DNA of 64,000 nt from the NCBI GenBank assembly GCA_001798075.1, contig MGRG01000010.1, positions 1 to 64,000 of the forward strand. The letters run 5' to 3'. How positions within the stretch are numbered: the first letter of the stretch is position 1; every line of letters starts with the position of its first letter. Below the pieces are notes generated by a model that was not told the origin of the DNA, did not search any database, and saw only the letters and a list, made by a program, of their open reading frames with translations. Shown here piece after piece: positions 11,729-19,566 of the stretch. Both the position numbers and the translations under genes were made by a program. Source of the DNA: Deltaproteobacteria bacterium RIFCSPHIGHO2_01_FULL_43_49 (GTDB lineage: Bacteria > UBA10199 > SPLOWO2-01-44-7).

Positions 11729-11890
11729 TGGGTTGCCATATCAGCTTTTTTTCATATTGAGAATAAAAATGGCGGGAAGGGGTGATAATTCACTCATCTG
11801 TCAAAAATTTGGCAATTTAATCTAATAATTTCAAATAGTTATATAGTGGGTATCTGGCATGTAGATTGCACGTTCATGGTGGTGGTCTTT

Positions 11891-14800
11891 ATGGATAAGT
11901 GTCAAAACATATTATCGCATTGCTTGGTGTCCGCCCTTTTCGCCTGTACTCTATTGTTAGGTTCCACGCTGTACGCTCAGCTTGAAAGTACAACCCCAAA
12001 TCCAGGCGCGACGGGTACTTGTACTACTGGCCAAACCCTTTCTTGTACCGGTTCCAATCCATGCAAGACTTATCGGCATATCTGTATAGGAGGATTCTGG
12101 AGTCCCTGCACAGGATTTGCCAAAACGAATGATACACCCTGTAATGACGGCAATCTGTGCACAACGGGTGACACTTGCCAAAACGGAAGCTGCACCGCAG
12201 GTTCACCTTATTGTGGTGCCGGTGACGGCAACCCCTGCACACAAGATTGCGTCATCACCACAAACATCTTTGGTTTCCCGGCGGCGAGTTGTCCCACCCC
12301 CCCTCCTGCTGATCCCAATATGATTGGCCAACCGTGTACACTTGATGGCTGCGGTACTTGCAGTAAAAAAGGAGATGGAAGTTGCTTACTCAGCAATAGC
12401 TTTTGCGCGGACACCAATATTTGCACTACCGATACCTGTAACTTTCCAAAAGGTTGTAACTCAATTAACAACAGTGCCACTCAATCTTGTTACACTGGGC
12501 TAGCAGGAACTCAAAATGTTGGTGTTTGCATAGGAGGAACTCAAACTTGCTCTGGTGGAAGTCTTGGTGCATGTATAGGTCAAGTTCTTCCCTCAACCGA
12601 AATCTGCGGTAATTCAAGTGATGAAAATTGTGACGGCAGTTTAATAAATGGATGTTGCGGTGATGCAACAGTACAAACTCCCAACAATGCAGGAGTTAAT
12701 GAACAATGCGACGACGGTAATGCAAGCAACACGGATACCTGCACGACTTCCTGTCTCAATGCGCGTTGCGGCGACACCTATATTCAAACAGGTGAACAGT
12801 GTGACGATGGAAACACAAGTAATATAGATGCATGTACCAATGCCTGTTTGAATGCACGTTGCGGCGACACCTATATTCAAATAGGTGAACAGTGTGATGA
12901 TAGCAACACAGTCAGCACCGATGCATGTACCGCTACTTGTCAAAACGCTATTTGCGGAGATGGTATCATTAGAGCTGGTGTTGAACAGTGTGATGATAGC
13001 AACACAGTCAGCACCGATGCATGTACCGCTACTTGTCAAAACGCTATTTGCGGAGATAGCATCGTTAGAGCTGGTGTCGAACAGTGCGATGACGGTGCTC
13101 AAAATGGCCAACCCAATCAATGTAATTCAACTTGCTCTGCGATAACGGTTCCTGTTTGTGGCAACGGTGCCATTGAAAGTGGCGAACAATGCGATGACGG
13201 TAATACCGCCAATACAGATGCCTGTACCACTACCTGTCAAAACGCTATTTGCGGAGATAGCATCGTTAGAGCTGGTGTCGAACAGTGCGATGATGGAAAC
13301 ACAAGTGATACAGATGCTTGTCTTAGTTGCCAAAACGCCGCTTGTGGAGATGGGCAAGTACAAGCCGGTGTCGAACAATGCGACGACAACAATGCAGATA
13401 ATAATGATGGGTGTTCCTCTTCTTGTTTCTTTGAACCTAAATGTCCAACTCTCGAGTGCCTTCCAAAAGACCCCATTCTTGATGCTAATAACAGAGCCGC
13501 GCTTGACTGCACGGTGAGCGGTGGAACCAACTGGACTGAATGTACCATTACAAATTGTGTTGAGGATCCCGATCCTCGTGTTTCTCCCAAATCTCTAAGT
13601 GTTACCTGTACAATTGAAGGAACCTCTCCTCCTCCTATTGGCCTTTCTTGCACTGGTGCTGGGGGAGGCTGTAGCGGTGGTGGTGTCCCGATCACGCCTC
13701 TTGTTTGTGATCCTAAAGGACCTCCTCAAAGTTGTCCGTTATTAGGCACAACATCAGGCACAATCGTTAACGCTGCTTGCAGCAGTGGTACACAAACTTG
13801 CAAAACAGATGGGAGTGGTTGGAATGCATGTCAGGCCGACACAACTCAATCTTGCGAAGATGGCAATCTCTGCACGACAGGAGAACAATGCAACAGTAAT
13901 GGTTCTTGCGGAGGAGGTTCTCCAGTTGTTTGTGTTGATGACAATCCTTGCGACGGATCCAACAGTTGCGATCTGGCCGATGGACAATGCAAGCTACAAG
14001 GCAGTATTCCTTCTAACAATGATGTGGTTAATATCAGTGGCTTTAATCAACTTTGCTTTGATCTTCGTTTAATCCCTTGCCTTGCTCTCGAAATTTGTGG
14101 TGATGGCATTGACAATGATTGTAATTTATCCATCGATGATAGCTGCCCTGTTTGTGGCAACGGTACTCGTGAAAGTGGCGAGCAATGTGATGATAACAAT
14201 ACAAATGCCGGCGATGGCTGCTCCGCAACATGCCAAAATGAAATTTGCGGCAACGGCATCGTTGATCCGAGAGAAGCCTGTGACGACGCAAATACAAGTA
14301 ATACTGATGCTTGTACAAGTAGCTGCCAAAATGCGCGTTGTGGTGATGGCAATCTACAAACCGGCGTTGAAATTTGTGATGATGGCAACTCTATCGACAC
14401 GGATTCCTGCCGCAATAACTGCACGCTTCAAAGTTGTGGAGACGGCTTCAGAAGTGCCACGGAGGCCTGCGATGATGGAAATACCGTGGATACCGATGCT
14501 TGCCGTGACAACTGCACGCTGCAACGTTGCGGTGACAGCTTCAAGAGCGATGCGGAAGCCTGCGACGATGGAAACTTGGTCGACAATGACGCTTGCCGCA
14601 ATGATTGCACTTTACCCAGCTGTGGGGATGGTCTGGTCAGCTCCGGTGAATTCTGCGATGACGGCACCGCCAATAGCAACGCAACATACAACGCTTGCAA
14701 AACAGATTGTTCCGGTAGAGTGGAGGCGACTTGTGGAAACAATATTCGTGAAGGAACAGAACAATGTGACGGATCTTCAAGTGACCCCAATAAAAACTGC

Positions 14801-17800
14801 GTTAATTGCCAGCTTGTCGACAAAACCAAATGTGGAGACGGCATTGTTCAAAAAACTAATGATTTTGGTGTGAACGAGCTTTGCGATGATGGCAATCAAA
14901 TAGACACAGATTCGTGTCGCAACAATTGTACATCGCAAATCTGCGGAGATGGATTCAAGAGCGATGTAGAAACTTGCGATGAAGGTTTAAAACTCAACGG
15001 AATGCCTGGTCACTGCACAACTCTTTGTACAGCACCCAATTGCGATGACGGTGATCAATGCAATGGCATGGAAATCTATGAAATCAATTTGGGATGCAAG
15101 AGAGGGATACCACTTGATACCGAAGACAACAACGCTTGCACAACAGACGCTTGTAATTCTCAATCAGGTGAAGTGACTCACATAGCCATTTTTGCCTCTC
15201 CTCCTGATGGCTGTCAGGTTGCCGACCAATGCGATCCTGTATCTGGCTGGTTATACAAAGCTGATCCAAGCATTGGACAAAGCTGTGACACAGCAATTGA
15301 CACTTGCCCTGTGAAGGGAACTTATACTTGTACCGCTATACCCACTGCAACATTTGTAATCAAACAAGTAACTTGTGTCCCCAACGCTTCAGAAACAGTC
15401 GATGCCAATGGCAATGGAATTCCGGATAAATGTGATGCACCACCTCCTCCCGCCCCTGTTTGTGGCAACGGTACTGTAGAAACTGGGGAATTTTGCGATG
15501 ACGGCGCAGTAAACGGTCAGCCCACTAAATGTAATACCTTTTGTACTGCCATTACTGCACCTGTTTGTGGCAACGGTTTTAAAGAAGGACGTGAAGAATG
15601 TGATGATGGCAACTTGTTAAACGGTGATGGCTGCACGTGGGGCTGTCGACGGGAATTCTATATGTACATCCCTCCAACACCTGTATGTGGAGACGGCACT
15701 TTGGACTGGAACGAAGCGTGTGACGATAACAACATAAACAATGGAGATGGTTGTTCTGAATATTGCCAATTCGAACCCCGTTGTGGCGATGGAAATCCAG
15801 ATCCAGGTGAAACTTGCGATCAAGGCCTTGCCAACAGCGATACACAAGAGGGTGCTTGCAAAACCGATTGTTCTGGTCTTGTTCAACCGCCAAAAATTGT
15901 TATGCCAGCACAACCATGCAGTTCTAAAATCTTTGATTGCACCAAAGTGGCAGCTGAATTGTCACCTAACGATGAGGTATTTGACGCCACAACTATCTTC
16001 CCCGATGTTTTTGACAAACAGATTCTTATCTTCACCGGCACCAGTGGCGGCAAACCAGGACTTGTCTACAATGCGGCAAAAAAGATGGCTGAGGATGGAA
16101 AATTTAAATTCAGTTATTGCGACCTAGAAAAAAGTGACCCTCTGCGTCACCTCTCACCAGGCAAAATCAATGGTCCAGACATCAATGATTTGGCTGGGGC
16201 ATCCGATAACAAATATTATTATTTATTAGACTTCGAAAATCTCATTCAGAGAGACGCCTCTCAAACTTGCAGTATTGAACCCAAAATTATTTTTGAGGAT
16301 GCGCAAAGGAGCATGACAAGTGAAAGAAACTGCAACATTGCCAAAATTCATGATCTAAAAACATTGCGCGATGCGAACGGCAAGGCAAATGTTGTTGGAG
16401 CCATTGAATGTGCCATCGAACAACCGATCCAAGAAAAGGGCATTGGTCTAGATTTCTTTAGCTATGACGAAGCCCAGCAAAAATTCAGTCATCAATTTGT
16501 CAGTTTCGTCAAAACCTATCCAGCAGATAGCGAAATTGTGCAGTTAAAAGTTAATCCGGCGCTAGAGAACACAACCCAGGTACCAAAAATTTCTGTCGCT
16601 CTTGCCATCAAAATAGGCGAAAAAATCAACACCATTCTTGTCGACTGCGGAAAGATTGAAGAAAAATGGGATTGCCCTCATAGTCAAGAAATAAAAGAGC
16701 CCTTACTTGCCATGATGGATGTTGATTTGGAAAAAATTTCTGAGACACCGACACAGGAAAAAGAACATCTCTTGCTCAGCCAGTCTGGACAAGTCATGAG
16801 CGAGGCCCCACCACCTCCAGCTGAAACTGGGGCTGAGGGTCAACAAACTCGAACTGTTTCCAAAACGATTTACGAAGAAAAGGGAACTGTCATTCGGCAA
16901 GATGCACAAGCCGATACCAATTTTAATCCTCTTGGTGCACCGGCCCAAGCAGTTAATGCCTGGTATGGACCAAATGCGTGGAATATTTATGTGACGGAAA
17001 AGGCATCACTCAAGGGCTATGGCATCATCACCAAGGAGAATGGTGAGCTAACAGTTATTAAATTAGATGATGAGGTCTTAACTCCTGATTCGGTGATTAG
17101 CGATGTTCATAGCAACGAAACCATCCAATATCTCAATCCACATCATCCAACTCGGGTAATGAGCGATAACTATGGTGGGGCTGACATGGTGGTATTTTAT
17201 GATATGTTTGACATGACAGATCCTAAAAACCCTGTGAAAGTCGGGACAATGCCGTTCGGTTATCCCAATCTCAATGAAACACCTGAGATTAAACTGGAAT
17301 CTCAATCAGACGGAAAGAAAGTAATAATTAGTCTATCGCCTTCCGATAAGATGGATGATGACTTGATCTGCGAAACCCATCTCAAGGATCAAAACGGGCA
17401 GAATATGGATCATCTGATTATAAAACAGGATTGCACCAGTGTTGAAATCAATCTTGAAGAAGCTCTAAAATCTTTTGAACACGTTAGTGTTCCAACACCA
17501 AACACTGGTATCAGTGTTGGGTTGTCGGCCAAGGGTGTCTCCAAATCCAGTGACAATGTCAGTATCAGCAATGTCGCTTGGCCATTACTAGGCACGAGTT
17601 GCGCAGAAGATGCTGAACCTGCAAGAGGTTGTGCTGACTTCTCCGTTAGCAAATCGGGAAGTGCCCAGATCGTTGAAGCACCTGCAAGAGTAGAAGGTGG
17701 CGATACTGTTACCGACGCAATCCCTCAAACAGGAGGATGGATGGTTTCTGGAAAAGGATGTAGTTTGAACCCTGCAGACAACAACGGCCGTGATTACAGC

Positions 17801-17908
17801 ATCTATGTTTTGTTTATTCTCTTGGGCCTGCTCTTAGCTTCCTTCAGAATCCAAATCGCTAAAAACTGGCGGGGCCGACGGGATTCGAACCCGCGATCCT
17901 CTGCGTGA
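11891..17908 (+). CDS. Giant cysteine-rich repeat surface protein (DUF4215 type)
   Basis: About 2005 residues. The frame opens with GTG at 11846, but the ATG at 11891 gives a clean signal peptide (MDKCQNILSHCLVSALFACT..., cleavage after YAQ). The first ~1300 residues contain roughly twenty Cys-rich units of the form CGDGxxxxGEQCDDGNxxxxDxCxxxC, the DUF4215/Myxococcus cysteine-rich repeat, interleaved with other Cys-rich modules (NLCTTGDTCQNGSC). The rest (about 1350-1950) is a mixed region with fewer Cys. The end has GKGCSLNP, a spacer, the hydrophobic segment YSIYVLFILLGLLLASF and a basic tail, like a MYXO-CTERM sorting signal. The last codons (NWRGRRDSNPRSSA) are antisense to tRNA-Asp and the stop lies inside that tRNA. 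Confidence 0.85.
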   Translation: MDKCQNILSHCLVSALFACTLLLGSTLYAQLESTTPNPGATGTCTTGQTLSCTGSNPCKTYRHICIGGFWSPCTGFAKTNDTPCNDGNLCTTGDTCQNGSCTAGSPYCGAGDGNPCTQDCVITTNIFGFPAASCPTPPPADPNMIGQPCTLDGCGTCSKKGDGSCLLSNSFCADTNICTTDTCNFPKGCNSINNSATQSCYTGLAGTQNVGVCIGGTQTCSGGSLGACIGQVLPSTEICGNSSDENCDGSLINGCCGDATVQTPNNAGVNEQCDDGNASNTDTCTTSCLNARCGDTYIQTGEQCDDGNTSNIDACTNACLNARCGDTYIQIGEQCDDSNTVSTDACTATCQNAICGDGIIRAGVEQCDDSNTVSTDACTATCQNAICGDSIVRAGVEQCDDGAQNGQPNQCNSTCSAITVPVCGNGAIESGEQCDDGNTANTDACTTTCQNAICGDSIVRAGVEQCDDGNTSDTDACLSCQNAACGDGQVQAGVEQCDDNNADNNDGCSSSCFFEPKCPTLECLPKDPILDANNRAALDCTVSGGTNWTECTITNCVEDPDPRVSPKSLSVTCTIEGTSPPPIGLSCTGAGGGCSGGGVPITPLVCDPKGPPQSCPLLGTTSGTIVNAACSSGTQTCKTDGSGWNACQADTTQSCEDGNLCTTGEQCNSNGSCGGGSPVVCVDDNPCDGSNSCDLADGQCKLQGSIPSNNDVVNISGFNQLCFDLRLIPCLALEICGDGIDNDCNLSIDDSCPVCGNGTRESGEQCDDNNTNAGDGCSATCQNEICGNGIVDPREACDDANTSNTDACTSSCQNARCGDGNLQTGVEICDDGNSIDTDSCRNNCTLQSCGDGFRSATEACDDGNTVDTDACRDNCTLQRCGDSFKSDAEACDDGNLVDNDACRNDCTLPSCGDGLVSSGEFCDDGTANSNATYNACKTDCSGRVEATCGNNIREGTEQCDGSSSDPNKNCVNCQLVDKTKCGDGIVQKTNDFGVNELCDDGNQIDTDSCRNNCTSQICGDGFKSDVETCDEGLKLNGMPGHCTTLCTAPNCDDGDQCNGMEIYEINLGCKRGIPLDTEDNNACTTDACNSQSGEVTHIAIFASPPDGCQVADQCDPVSGWLYKADPSIGQSCDTAIDTCPVKGTYTCTAIPTATFVIKQVTCVPNASETVDANGNGIPDKCDAPPPPAPVCGNGTVETGEFCDDGAVNGQPTKCNTFCTAITAPVCGNGFKEGREECDDGNLLNGDGCTWGCRREFYMYIPPTPVCGDGTLDWNEACDDNNINNGDGCSEYCQFEPRCGDGNPDPGETCDQGLANSDTQEGACKTDCSGLVQPPKIVMPAQPCSSKIFDCTKVAAELSPNDEVFDATTIFPDVFDKQILIFTGTSGGKPGLVYNAAKKMAEDGKFKFSYCDLEKSDPLRHLSPGKINGPDINDLAGASDNKYYYLLDFENLIQRDASQTCSIEPKIIFEDAQRSMTSERNCNIAKIHDLKTLRDANGKANVVGAIECAIEQPIQEKGIGLDFFSYDEAQQKFSHQFVSFVKTYPADSEIVQLKVNPALENTTQVPKISVALAIKIGEKINTILVDCGKIEEKWDCPHSQEIKEPLLAMMDVDLEKISETPTQEKEHLLLSQSGQVMSEAPPPPAETGAEGQQTRTVSKTIYEEKGTVIRQDAQADTNFNPLGAPAQAVNAWYGPNAWNIYVTEKASLKGYGIITKENGELTVIKLDDEVLTPDSVISDVHSNETIQYLNPHHPTRVMSDNYGGADMVVFYDMFDMTDPKNPVKVGTMPFGYPNLNETPEIKLESQSDGKKVIISLSPSDKMDDDLICETHLKDQNGQNMDHLIIKQDCTSVEINLEEALKSFEHVSVPTPNTGISVGLSAKGVSKSSDNVSISNVAWPLLGTSCAEDAEPARGCADFSVSKSGSAQIVEAPARVEGGDTVTDAIPQTGGWMVSGKGCSLNPADNNGRDYSIYVLFILLGLLLASFRIQIAKNWRGRRDSNPRSSA
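12691..13400 (+). repeat. Recent tandem duplications within the Cys-rich repeats
   Basis: Successive units are nearly identical in DNA as well as protein. For example, the 75 bases from 12887 recur at 12983 (period 96 bp), and the ~59 bases from 13034 recur at 13239. The identity includes synonymous positions, so these units were copied recently. The array is prone to length variation and to assembly collapse. Confidence 0.8.
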
Positions 17909-17944
17909 CAGGCAGATGTGTTAGGCCAGCTACACCACAGCCCC
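17867..17944 (-). tRNA. tRNA-Asp (anticodon GTC)
   Basis: On the minus strand it reads GGGGCTGTGGTGTAGCTGG... with a 7-bp acceptor stem pairing to CGGCCCC, an anticodon loop CTGTCAC (anticodon GTC), T-arm GGTTCGAATCC and an encoded CCA end. Both ends overlap protein frames: the antisense Cys-rich gene ends inside it, and the LAGLIDADG frame on the same strand ends 15 bases into its 5' end. Confidence 0.95.
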
Positions 17945-18604
17945 AAAATGTCGAGCCCCCCTTCTAAAAGTTTTATACTTTCTTGACAACCGTAATCTTT
18001 TGTCCAGATCTTTGTAAAAGAAATCAAATAGTTTTAGCCCATCTCTCTGACAAAATGACAATCGATAACACCTTGTTCCATTGTGAATACTTCCCCCTTT
18101 AAGATACGCCTCTTTTATCAGAATAGTCCAAAGCTGTTGCAAAAACTGGCGATATCTTGAGATAAAAATAACCTGAAAATAATCCTGTCTCTTTTGTCTC
18201 TGAGTTCTGAAAAAATTCGAAAACATCACACACCCGTCTCCATCAAAAAATCCTCTAATGAAGTCTCGATAATACCTCTTAGGGATACGAGGCATAGCGC
18301 TTTTCCTTGATAAACCCATTTTCGACAATCGGGATAACATATATTTATTTCCAATCTGAATTCTATATGCTGGTTTTCCTGGTTCTGATGGCGACCTCCT
18401 CTTCAATGAAATTTTATGATTGGAGTTCAATAAAGAACGAATGAGATCCACTAATTCTCTATCCGTAGAAAGAAACTCAACATATTGTGATCCTCTAGGA
18501 TTTGTCGTTAAAGTCCCATCGGACATTAAAAGTCCCAAAATATAAGCACTTTCTGGAGACCAGGAATCAAAAAATTTTTCATCCACTAATTTTTGTATCG
18601 GCAT
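17930..18604 (-). CDS. Free-standing LAGLIDADG homing endonuclease
   Basis: A 224-residue protein with two LAGLIDADG motifs, AYILGLLMSDGTL (about residues 20-32) and FIRGFFDGDGCV (about 114-125). Both have the acidic residue that binds the catalytic metal. Such enzymes make site-specific double-strand breaks and usually live in introns or inteins. No intein or intron boundary is visible here, so it is free-standing. Its stop codon lies inside the 5' end of tRNA-Asp on the same strand. No clear ribosome binding site precedes the ATG. It follows the BtuF-like gene by 8 bases. Its recognition site is unknown; the adjacent tRNA gene is one candidate. Confidence 0.8.
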   Translation of the reverse strand: MPIQKLVDEKFFDSWSPESAYILGLLMSDGTLTTNPRGSQYVEFLSTDRELVDLIRSLLNSNHKISLKRRSPSEPGKPAYRIQIGNKYMLSRLSKMGLSRKSAMPRIPKRYYRDFIRGFFDGDGCVMFSNFFRTQRQKRQDYFQVIFISRYRQFLQQLWTILIKEAYLKGGSIHNGTRCYRLSFCQRDGLKLFDFFYKDLDKRLRLSRKYKTFRRGARHFGAVV

Positions 18605-18612
18605 AAACTAAC

Positions 18613-19500
18613 TCAAACAAAAGAGCTCACTGCACCACTTGGAATTTTTTCTTCAAACAAATCTGGGTGAAAAAGGCCAGCTAAAATGGTGAGGCTTTCC
18701 AAAATTCTGGGCCCGGGACGGTTCATATACGTATTGCCATCCACAATAAAAATTTTGCCGGGTAAATTTTCCAAATCGGCTTTATTTTCTAAGGTTTGCT
18801 GAATGGTAAAACCGCACGGCATGACAACAACCATATCGGGATTATATTCTTTGACCTGTTCTGGAGTCACCACAATCGTGTGGTCTCCTTTTTTCGTTAT
18901 TCCATTAATTCCTCCTGCCATCTCCACCATTTCGGGAATCCAGTTGCCCGCAATCATAATGGGGTTGAGCCACTCCACACAAAGCACACGAGGTTTTTTT
19001 TGAAGTTTCTGAGTCTGTTTTTGAATTTCAGACATCTTGCCTCGAATTTCCTTGACTAACTTTTCGGCTTTCCCTTTTACTTTCAGGGCCTCCCCTACCT
19101 TCAAAATATCTGTGAAAATATCATCTAACGAATCGGGATGAAGCGTGACAATCTGAGCATTTGCACTGAGGCAGGTTTGAGTTGCTTTCACCACATCGTC
19201 ATACGTCACCGCGCAAACTTCGCATTGATCTTGCGTGACGATGATGTCGGGGTTAGCTTTCTGCAAAGCGGCAACATCGATGTTGTAGACAGAAAGTCCT
19301 TGGCTCACAATTTTTTGAACATCCTCGTGAATCTCCAAACTTCGTTTTTTCACATCCATTTTGGGTGAAGTAAGAATCGGCTTTCCTCGAACAGCCTCAG
19401 GCGGATAATCACACTCATGAGAGACACCAACCAATTGATCAGCAAAACCTAAGGCGGCAACAATTTCCGTTGCCGAGGCAATTAAAGAGGCGATGCGCAT
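18613..19500 (-). CDS. BtuF-like cobalamin/metal-chelate binding protein
   Basis: A 295-residue protein of the class III periplasmic binding fold (helical backbone type, COG0614). Seen are RIASLIASATEIVAALG, LVGVSHECDYPPE, NPDIIVTQDQCEVCAV and the GPRILESLTILAGLFHP end typical of stand-alone BtuF-like proteins. The start is the ATG at 19500; the longer frame begins with TTG at 19530. It has no signal peptide and no adjacent BtuC/BtuD genes, as in many orphan members, so a cytoplasmic or non-transport role is possible. It is divergent from the permease at 19567. Confidence 0.75.
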   Translation of the reverse strand: MRIASLIASATEIVAALGFADQLVGVSHECDYPPEAVRGKPILTSPKMDVKKRSLEIHEDVQKIVSQGLSVYNIDVAALQKANPDIIVTQDQCEVCAVTYDDVVKATQTCLSANAQIVTLHPDSLDDIFTDILKVGEALKVKGKAEKLVKEIRGKMSEIQKQTQKLQKKPRVLCVEWLNPIMIAGNWIPEMVEMAGGINGITKKGDHTIVVTPEQVKEYNPDMVVVMPCGFTIQQTLENKADLENLPGKIFIVDGNTYMNRPGPRILESLTILAGLFHPDLFEEKIPSGAVSSFV

Positions 19501-19566
19501 GTTAGAAACTATGCACAATCCCTTTGCCAATAAAAGTGGAAAGTGATAGTCATTTCAGACACTTCT

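Follow-up and report, generated by a model that had tools for sequence, protein, structure and literature searches.

Why should a free-standing endonuclease gene lie against a tRNA gene and end inside it? The question is raised by a 64,000-nucleotide stretch of deltaproteobacterial DNA (referred to as the window), in which a two-motif, free-standing LAGLIDADG homing endonuclease gene (HEG; 17930..18604, minus strand; 224 aa, ATG start, TAG stop) is followed by tRNA-Asp(GTC) (17867..17944, minus strand). As the first-pass annotation had noted, the two share a strand and overlap by 15 nt (GGGGCTGTGGTGTAG, 17930..17944, minus strand), so that the 3' end of the HEG frame (ORF 18604..17930) is nt 1–15 of the tRNA and the stop codon TAG (17932..17930, minus strand) is tRNA nt 13–15. 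Its view that the endonuclease is in place without an intron also stands: the tRNA is intact (64 bits, Rfam), an Rfam search found no group I intron at the locus, and the HEG is neither intron- nor intein-encoded. This tRNA-Asp, the sole one detected in the window's genome by a pattern search, is the proposed target gene of the endonuclease, in a version read as uncuttable.

Directly upstream of the HEG lies bp, a periplasmic-binding-protein-like gene (18613..19530, minus strand), and on the other side a convergent gene for a cysteine-rich-repeat (DUF4215) protein (11846..17908, plus strand) has its ORF end within the 3' part of tRNA-Asp on the opposite strand. The product of this ORF is 2020 aa long (DUF4215/myxo_disulf_rpt), and at its C terminus a hydrophobic tail precedes basic residues. 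Because the HEG and tRNA-Asp overlap and no terminator-like site is present between them, the two are likely to be co-transcribed.

By motifs, acidic residues and predicted fold, the window protein is a monomeric two-motif LAGLIDADG homing endonuclease, for which DNA cleavage is predicted. Two stretches of the protein match Pfam LAGLIDADG_3 (PF14528, E=1.1e-12), and the final acidic residue of each motif (D29 and D123) is invariant in 11 relatives. An AlphaFold2 model (pLDDT 85) has its best PDB match in I-Tsp061I, with further matches to I-DmoI and I-AniI. The protein matches only LAGLIDADG-type and related models, and a GIY-YIG nuclease domain is absent from it. Among the window HEG and two relatives, pN/pS is 0.24–0.30, indicating purifying selection.

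Relatives in genome contigs were found with an alignment as the query, a single-protein query giving none. All 12 matches among near relatives adjoin a same-strand tRNA, and of the HEGs in 80 named genomes, chiefly of Patescibacteria and Omnitrophota, nearly all have tRNA-Asp or tRNA-Cys immediately downstream. Within one Patescibacteria class, 142 genomes were drawn evenly; the gene is present in 31 of them, and 30 loci were read; a same-strand tRNA (Asp, Leu, Cys or Phe) adjoins 29 of these HEGs and the thirtieth adjoins a tRNA-Leu 3' remnant. Since only 1 of 80 distant viral relatives lies within 400 nt of a tRNA, against 29 of 30 in the evenly drawn set, the association is beyond chance. 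Phage and plasmid collections contained only distant relatives, with less than 60% identity.

The protein tree sorts by tRNA, requiring 6 label changes compared with a shuffled mean of ~33; the Cys HEGs are a single clade and no more than 3 changes are needed for the Asp group, so that each HEG lineage keeps to one tRNA. Relatives in other phyla occupy the same position on tRNA-Asp, and sister lineages are located at tRNA-Leu, -Cys and -Phe. A second relative in the window's own genome (G000:C8:151035-151754, L002) is directly downstream of tRNA-Leu(CAA), an arrangement also seen in the family genome G003 (L011) and in a Patescibacteria genome (L217). More distant LAGLIDADG proteins from genomes in the same class (L012, L022, L028 and L030) adjoin tRNA-Ser, and are possibly a further tRNA-specific lineage.

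The gene order in the window's family is permease, bp, HEG where present, tRNA-Asp and the convergent DUF4215 gene, which is kept on the same side of tRNA-Asp across the family. Comparison of tRNA-Asp neighbourhoods, which the first-pass annotation had proposed, reveals that the HEG is missing at tRNA-Asp in 3 of the 6 family genomes. One of them, G003, which belongs to the same genus as the carrier G005, has a precise empty site, with bp running straight into tRNA-Asp; presence of the gene at this locus thus varies among relatives. The annotation's idea that a homing gene has settled next to a tRNA that is its conserved target gains support from this empty site, by the same position in other phyla and by the isotype-specific sister lineages. 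Adjacency, tree and empty site are the firmest part of an analysis whose evidence consists entirely of sequence from draft genomes, and they are independent of the target proposed below.

The overlap itself deserves less weight. The bp ORF in G003 enters tRNA-Asp and its stop codon TAG is tRNA nt 8–10; because this ORF and the convergent ORF at 11846..17908 both end inside the tRNA, ending there is not special to the HEG, and is a compaction effect and a habit of the site rather than of the endonuclease. Across relatives, the ORF end lies inside the downstream tRNA at 77 of the 111 loci that have one.

At several other loci the HEG is flanked by displaced pieces of tRNA, which we read as insertion scars of a former tRNA. 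In L092 and L231, nt 1–27 of a displaced tRNA-Asp lie just before the HEG (26/27 identical) and end at the predicted site centre, and in L005 nt 1–22 of a displaced tRNA-Cys lie beside it (22/22 identical). Displaced tRNA-Leu 5' halves flank the HEGs of L213 and L222. The HEG of L217 follows its tRNA, and a displaced 3' part of tRNA-Leu lies beyond the HEG. Several HEG copies are interrupted. No clear tRNA remnant lies beside the window HEG. A 'Cys' match upstream of it is weak (13 versus a shuffled maximum of 11), falls within the coding end of bp and was rejected, as were upstream matches at L083, L038 and L071, which are other tRNA genes (one N-masked).

The divergence of the window HEG from two close relatives is about that of the neighbouring gene; therefore the recent history of this copy looks vertical. 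With no clear remnant and a pN/pS of 0.24–0.30, the copy is old. A HEG-intron-tRNA-Asp unit is 84% identical between L062 (Nomurabacteria) and L073 (a Daviesbacteria bin), with no similarity past the tRNA end. The pair, which reflects either transfer or a misplaced contig, was not counted as evidence for horizontal transfer, since the Daviesbacteria bin contains a second tRNA-Asp HEG (L106) and L073 is possibly a contaminant contig.

What the enzyme may recognise is suggested by the DNA upstream of its own gene. Many Asp HEGs are preceded by 24 nt that mimic tRNA-Asp, TGGTTAG-N9-CTGTCACG, in many cases with GTGATATAAT next, and the two blocks are spaced as the D loop and anticodon loop are in tRNA-Asp. 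With up to 2 mismatches, the motif is present within 150 nt upstream of 19 of 84 Asp HEGs, compared with 1 of 8400 shuffles and 0 of 27 non-Asp HEGs; the spacing of 9 found in tRNA-Asp gives these 19 matches and other spacings give 0–2. Leu HEGs carry tRNA-Leu mimics upstream, and of 24 significant upstream tRNA-like stretches in general, 20 match the adjacent tRNA in isotype. In many relatives the mimic adjoins an extended −10 element, and no promoter mimic was found upstream of the window HEG (L001) or of L003 and L004. We read the two conserved blocks as putative half-sites of the enzyme, deduced in this way from the promoter mimic, and the mimic as a recognition site probably reused as an operator; a displaced tRNA half may be its origin.

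If TGGTTAG-N9-CTGTCACG is the target, then carriers must be protected from their own enzyme. In 20 of the 20 intron-bearing carriers measured, the right half is interrupted by a group I intron (CTGT^CACG), and the HEG lies outside the intron. Leaving the intron aside, the site is perfect in 17 of 20 intron-split tRNA-Asp genes of carriers versus 5 of 60 intronless ones (L050, L064, L069, L091 and L108; p=2e-10). Introns in tRNA-Asp are found in 23 of 81 carriers and in 0 of 50 non-carriers of the same class, and the intron state changes 18 times on the tree. Altered sites are common in any case among Patescibacteria lacking the HEG, of which only 24 of 99 have a perfect tRNA-Asp site, and the contrast in perfect sites between carriers and all non-carriers is weaker (p=0.01); it is sharp against intron-bearing carriers and against non-carriers of the window's class, 14 of 21 of which have perfect sites. 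A contrast between canonical and deviant D-arms was discarded: the first set of non-carriers, picked by a D-arm pattern, was biased, and an unbiased set found by the 3' half gave 50 canonical and 49 other D-arms. The comparisons above use exact matches to the motif, which had been identified independently.

In the window's family, the site has 4–5 mismatches in carriers (L001, L003 and L004) and none in non-carriers (L330, L331 and L333). The equivalent of the inferred 24-bp target in the window's tRNA-Asp is at 17904..17927 (minus strand), where the right half-site CTGTCACG (17911..17904, minus strand) is intact and the left half (17927..17921, minus strand) is broken, reading GGCCTAA, with 4 mismatches to TGGTTAG. 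The damage in L003 and L004 is a +1 insertion, and as these two share one allele, the family provides two independent cases at most.

Other insertions in tRNA genes were seen along the way. In L010 (2152-2495) a group I intron (Rfam, 74.5 bits) interrupts a tRNA-Leu(UAA); the Leu-lineage HEG immediately upstream of this tRNA is outside the intron. The anticodon loop of tRNA-Asn is interrupted by inserts of 250–572 nt in the Patescibacteria loci L252, L256 and L257, with no HEG relative upstream. In L041, L085, L102 and L236, an exact repeat of the last 18–22 nt of tRNA-Asp lies 120–170 nt downstream of it (~150 nt), with an inverted partial copy in between, an arrangement resembling a small element located at the 3' end of the tRNA.

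The explanation that we consider probable, with good confidence, is that the window gene is a free-standing homing endonuclease from the tRNA-Asp branch of a large lineage in which each member specialises in a single tRNA gene, and that it would cut tRNA genes and travel with a tRNA copy that it cannot cut. In an uninvaded tRNA-Asp gene, the enzyme would recognise a stretch of ~24 bp running from TGGTTAG in the D loop to CTGTCACG in the anticodon loop, with the cut predicted to fall in the variable anticodon-stem stretch between the half-sites. Repair of the break from the donor allele would then replace the resident gene with the HEG plus the tRNA-Asp copy next to it. The carried tRNA-Asp would be uncuttable either by an altered site, as in the window, or by a group I intron splitting the right half-site, as in other bacteria. 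In the many relatives where the HEG promoter overlaps the tRNA-like copy of the site, the enzyme could also repress its own gene.

Other explanations account for parts of these observations. A domesticated LAGLIDADG protein that has lost homing and, in a maturase-like or regulatory role, helps the adjacent tRNA to be expressed, processed or spliced would fit the sustained purifying selection (pN/pS 0.24–0.30), a HEG that is always on the tRNA's strand, the apparently vertical inheritance in the window's family and the group I introns held by some neighbouring tRNAs. However, both catalytic acidic residues are conserved, 58 of the 81 neighbouring tRNA-Asp genes lack an intron that could be spliced, the gene is missing from close relatives whose tRNA-Asp looks normal, and the insertion scars and broken copies fit a mobile gene, all of which make domestication unlikely. 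That a LAGLIDADG gene simply landed by a tRNA, with the overlap as a by-product of a compact genome, is hardly credible: bp at the empty site and the convergent ORF do show that ending inside the tRNA comes from compaction, but chance would not produce adjacency in nearly all relatives, isotype-specific lineages and tRNA mimics upstream.

It could also be that the endonuclease was the partner of a group I intron in collaborative homing, and that the window's lineage lost the intron and left the endonuclease stranded. The restriction of introns at exactly this tRNA-Asp site to genes beside HEGs and their repeated changes of state on the tree favour such a past, whereas an intron was found neither in the family's three carriers nor in 21 class members lacking the HEG (a partial count, the class pattern finding intronless genes only), and the recognition site is altered, not restored, in 3 of 3 family carriers. 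As an account of the window this seems quite improbable, and it is compatible with the tRNA-hunting endonuclease favoured here, as the history of it.

A broader proposal, on which we are evenly divided, is that a widespread lineage of tRNA-hunting HEGs spreads as a cassette of a self-regulating endonuclease and an uncuttable tRNA across Patescibacteria, Omnitrophota and some deltaproteobacteria. It would have repeatedly replaced or reshaped essential tRNA genes, leaving odd D-arms, the +1 insertion TGGTTAG-T-AGC and anticodon-loop introns, with tRNA introns persisting as alternative shields. If true, this would provide a selfish-element explanation for the group I introns in tRNA-Asp and the deviant tRNA D-arms of small-genome bacteria. 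It would also supply a series of natural LAGLIDADG enzymes already grouped by the tRNA they target, with recognition sites readable from their own promoters, so that target prediction, specificity evolution and collaborative homing would become directly testable.

The separate elements of this scheme have counterparts in known systems. Fungal mitochondrial HEGs, such as those of Allomyces atp6 and rps3, carry a replacement for the end of the gene they invade, and the old part is left as a remnant. The likeness is that a HEG inserted in a gene brings a substitute for the part it displaces; here, however, the gene is a bacterial tRNA gene and the whole adjoining tRNA is apparently replaced. An endonuclease directed at the anticodon region of a tRNA gene is also known, although it is intron-encoded and of another nuclease family, whereas the HEGs of the window's lineage are LAGLIDADG genes outside introns. 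The shared feature is recognition of the anticodon region, which is proposed here for the window's lineage; the known endonuclease is cited in PMC3984707. Among the open-licence papers searched, none describes a LAGLIDADG lineage on chromosomes whose members specialise by tRNA gene.

In phages there is established precedent for intronless homing, for collaborative homing and for endonucleases that repress their own genes (PMC2988022, PMC3984707). SegB of phage T4 is free-standing, located between tRNA genes, and cuts the tRNA intergenic region (PMC2988022). Like it, the window HEG is free-standing, lies in a tRNA region and would promote the inheritance of its own locus, but SegB is a GIY-YIG enzyme of a phage, whereas the window HEG is LAGLIDADG and chromosomal, its inferred site is within the tRNA gene and its relatives form lineages by isotype. 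I-TevI has an operator that is similar to its homing site and overlaps the promoter of its gene (PMC2988022); many relatives of the window HEG likewise have a target-site copy directly upstream of the endonuclease gene, by the extended −10, although autorepression is here proposed from sequence and for a free-standing LAGLIDADG lineage, and the mimic is absent in the window. Collaborative (trans) homing is exemplified by mobE and F-CphI (PMC3984707, PMC6083498), with which the lineage shares a free-standing endonuclease beside a gene whose presumed target holds an ORF-less group I intron. Such an intron-interrupted target is absent from the window and present in 23 of 81 Asp relatives, and in contrast to mobE and F-CphI the lineage involves a tRNA gene and bacterial hosts, and its introns alternate with altered recognition sites.
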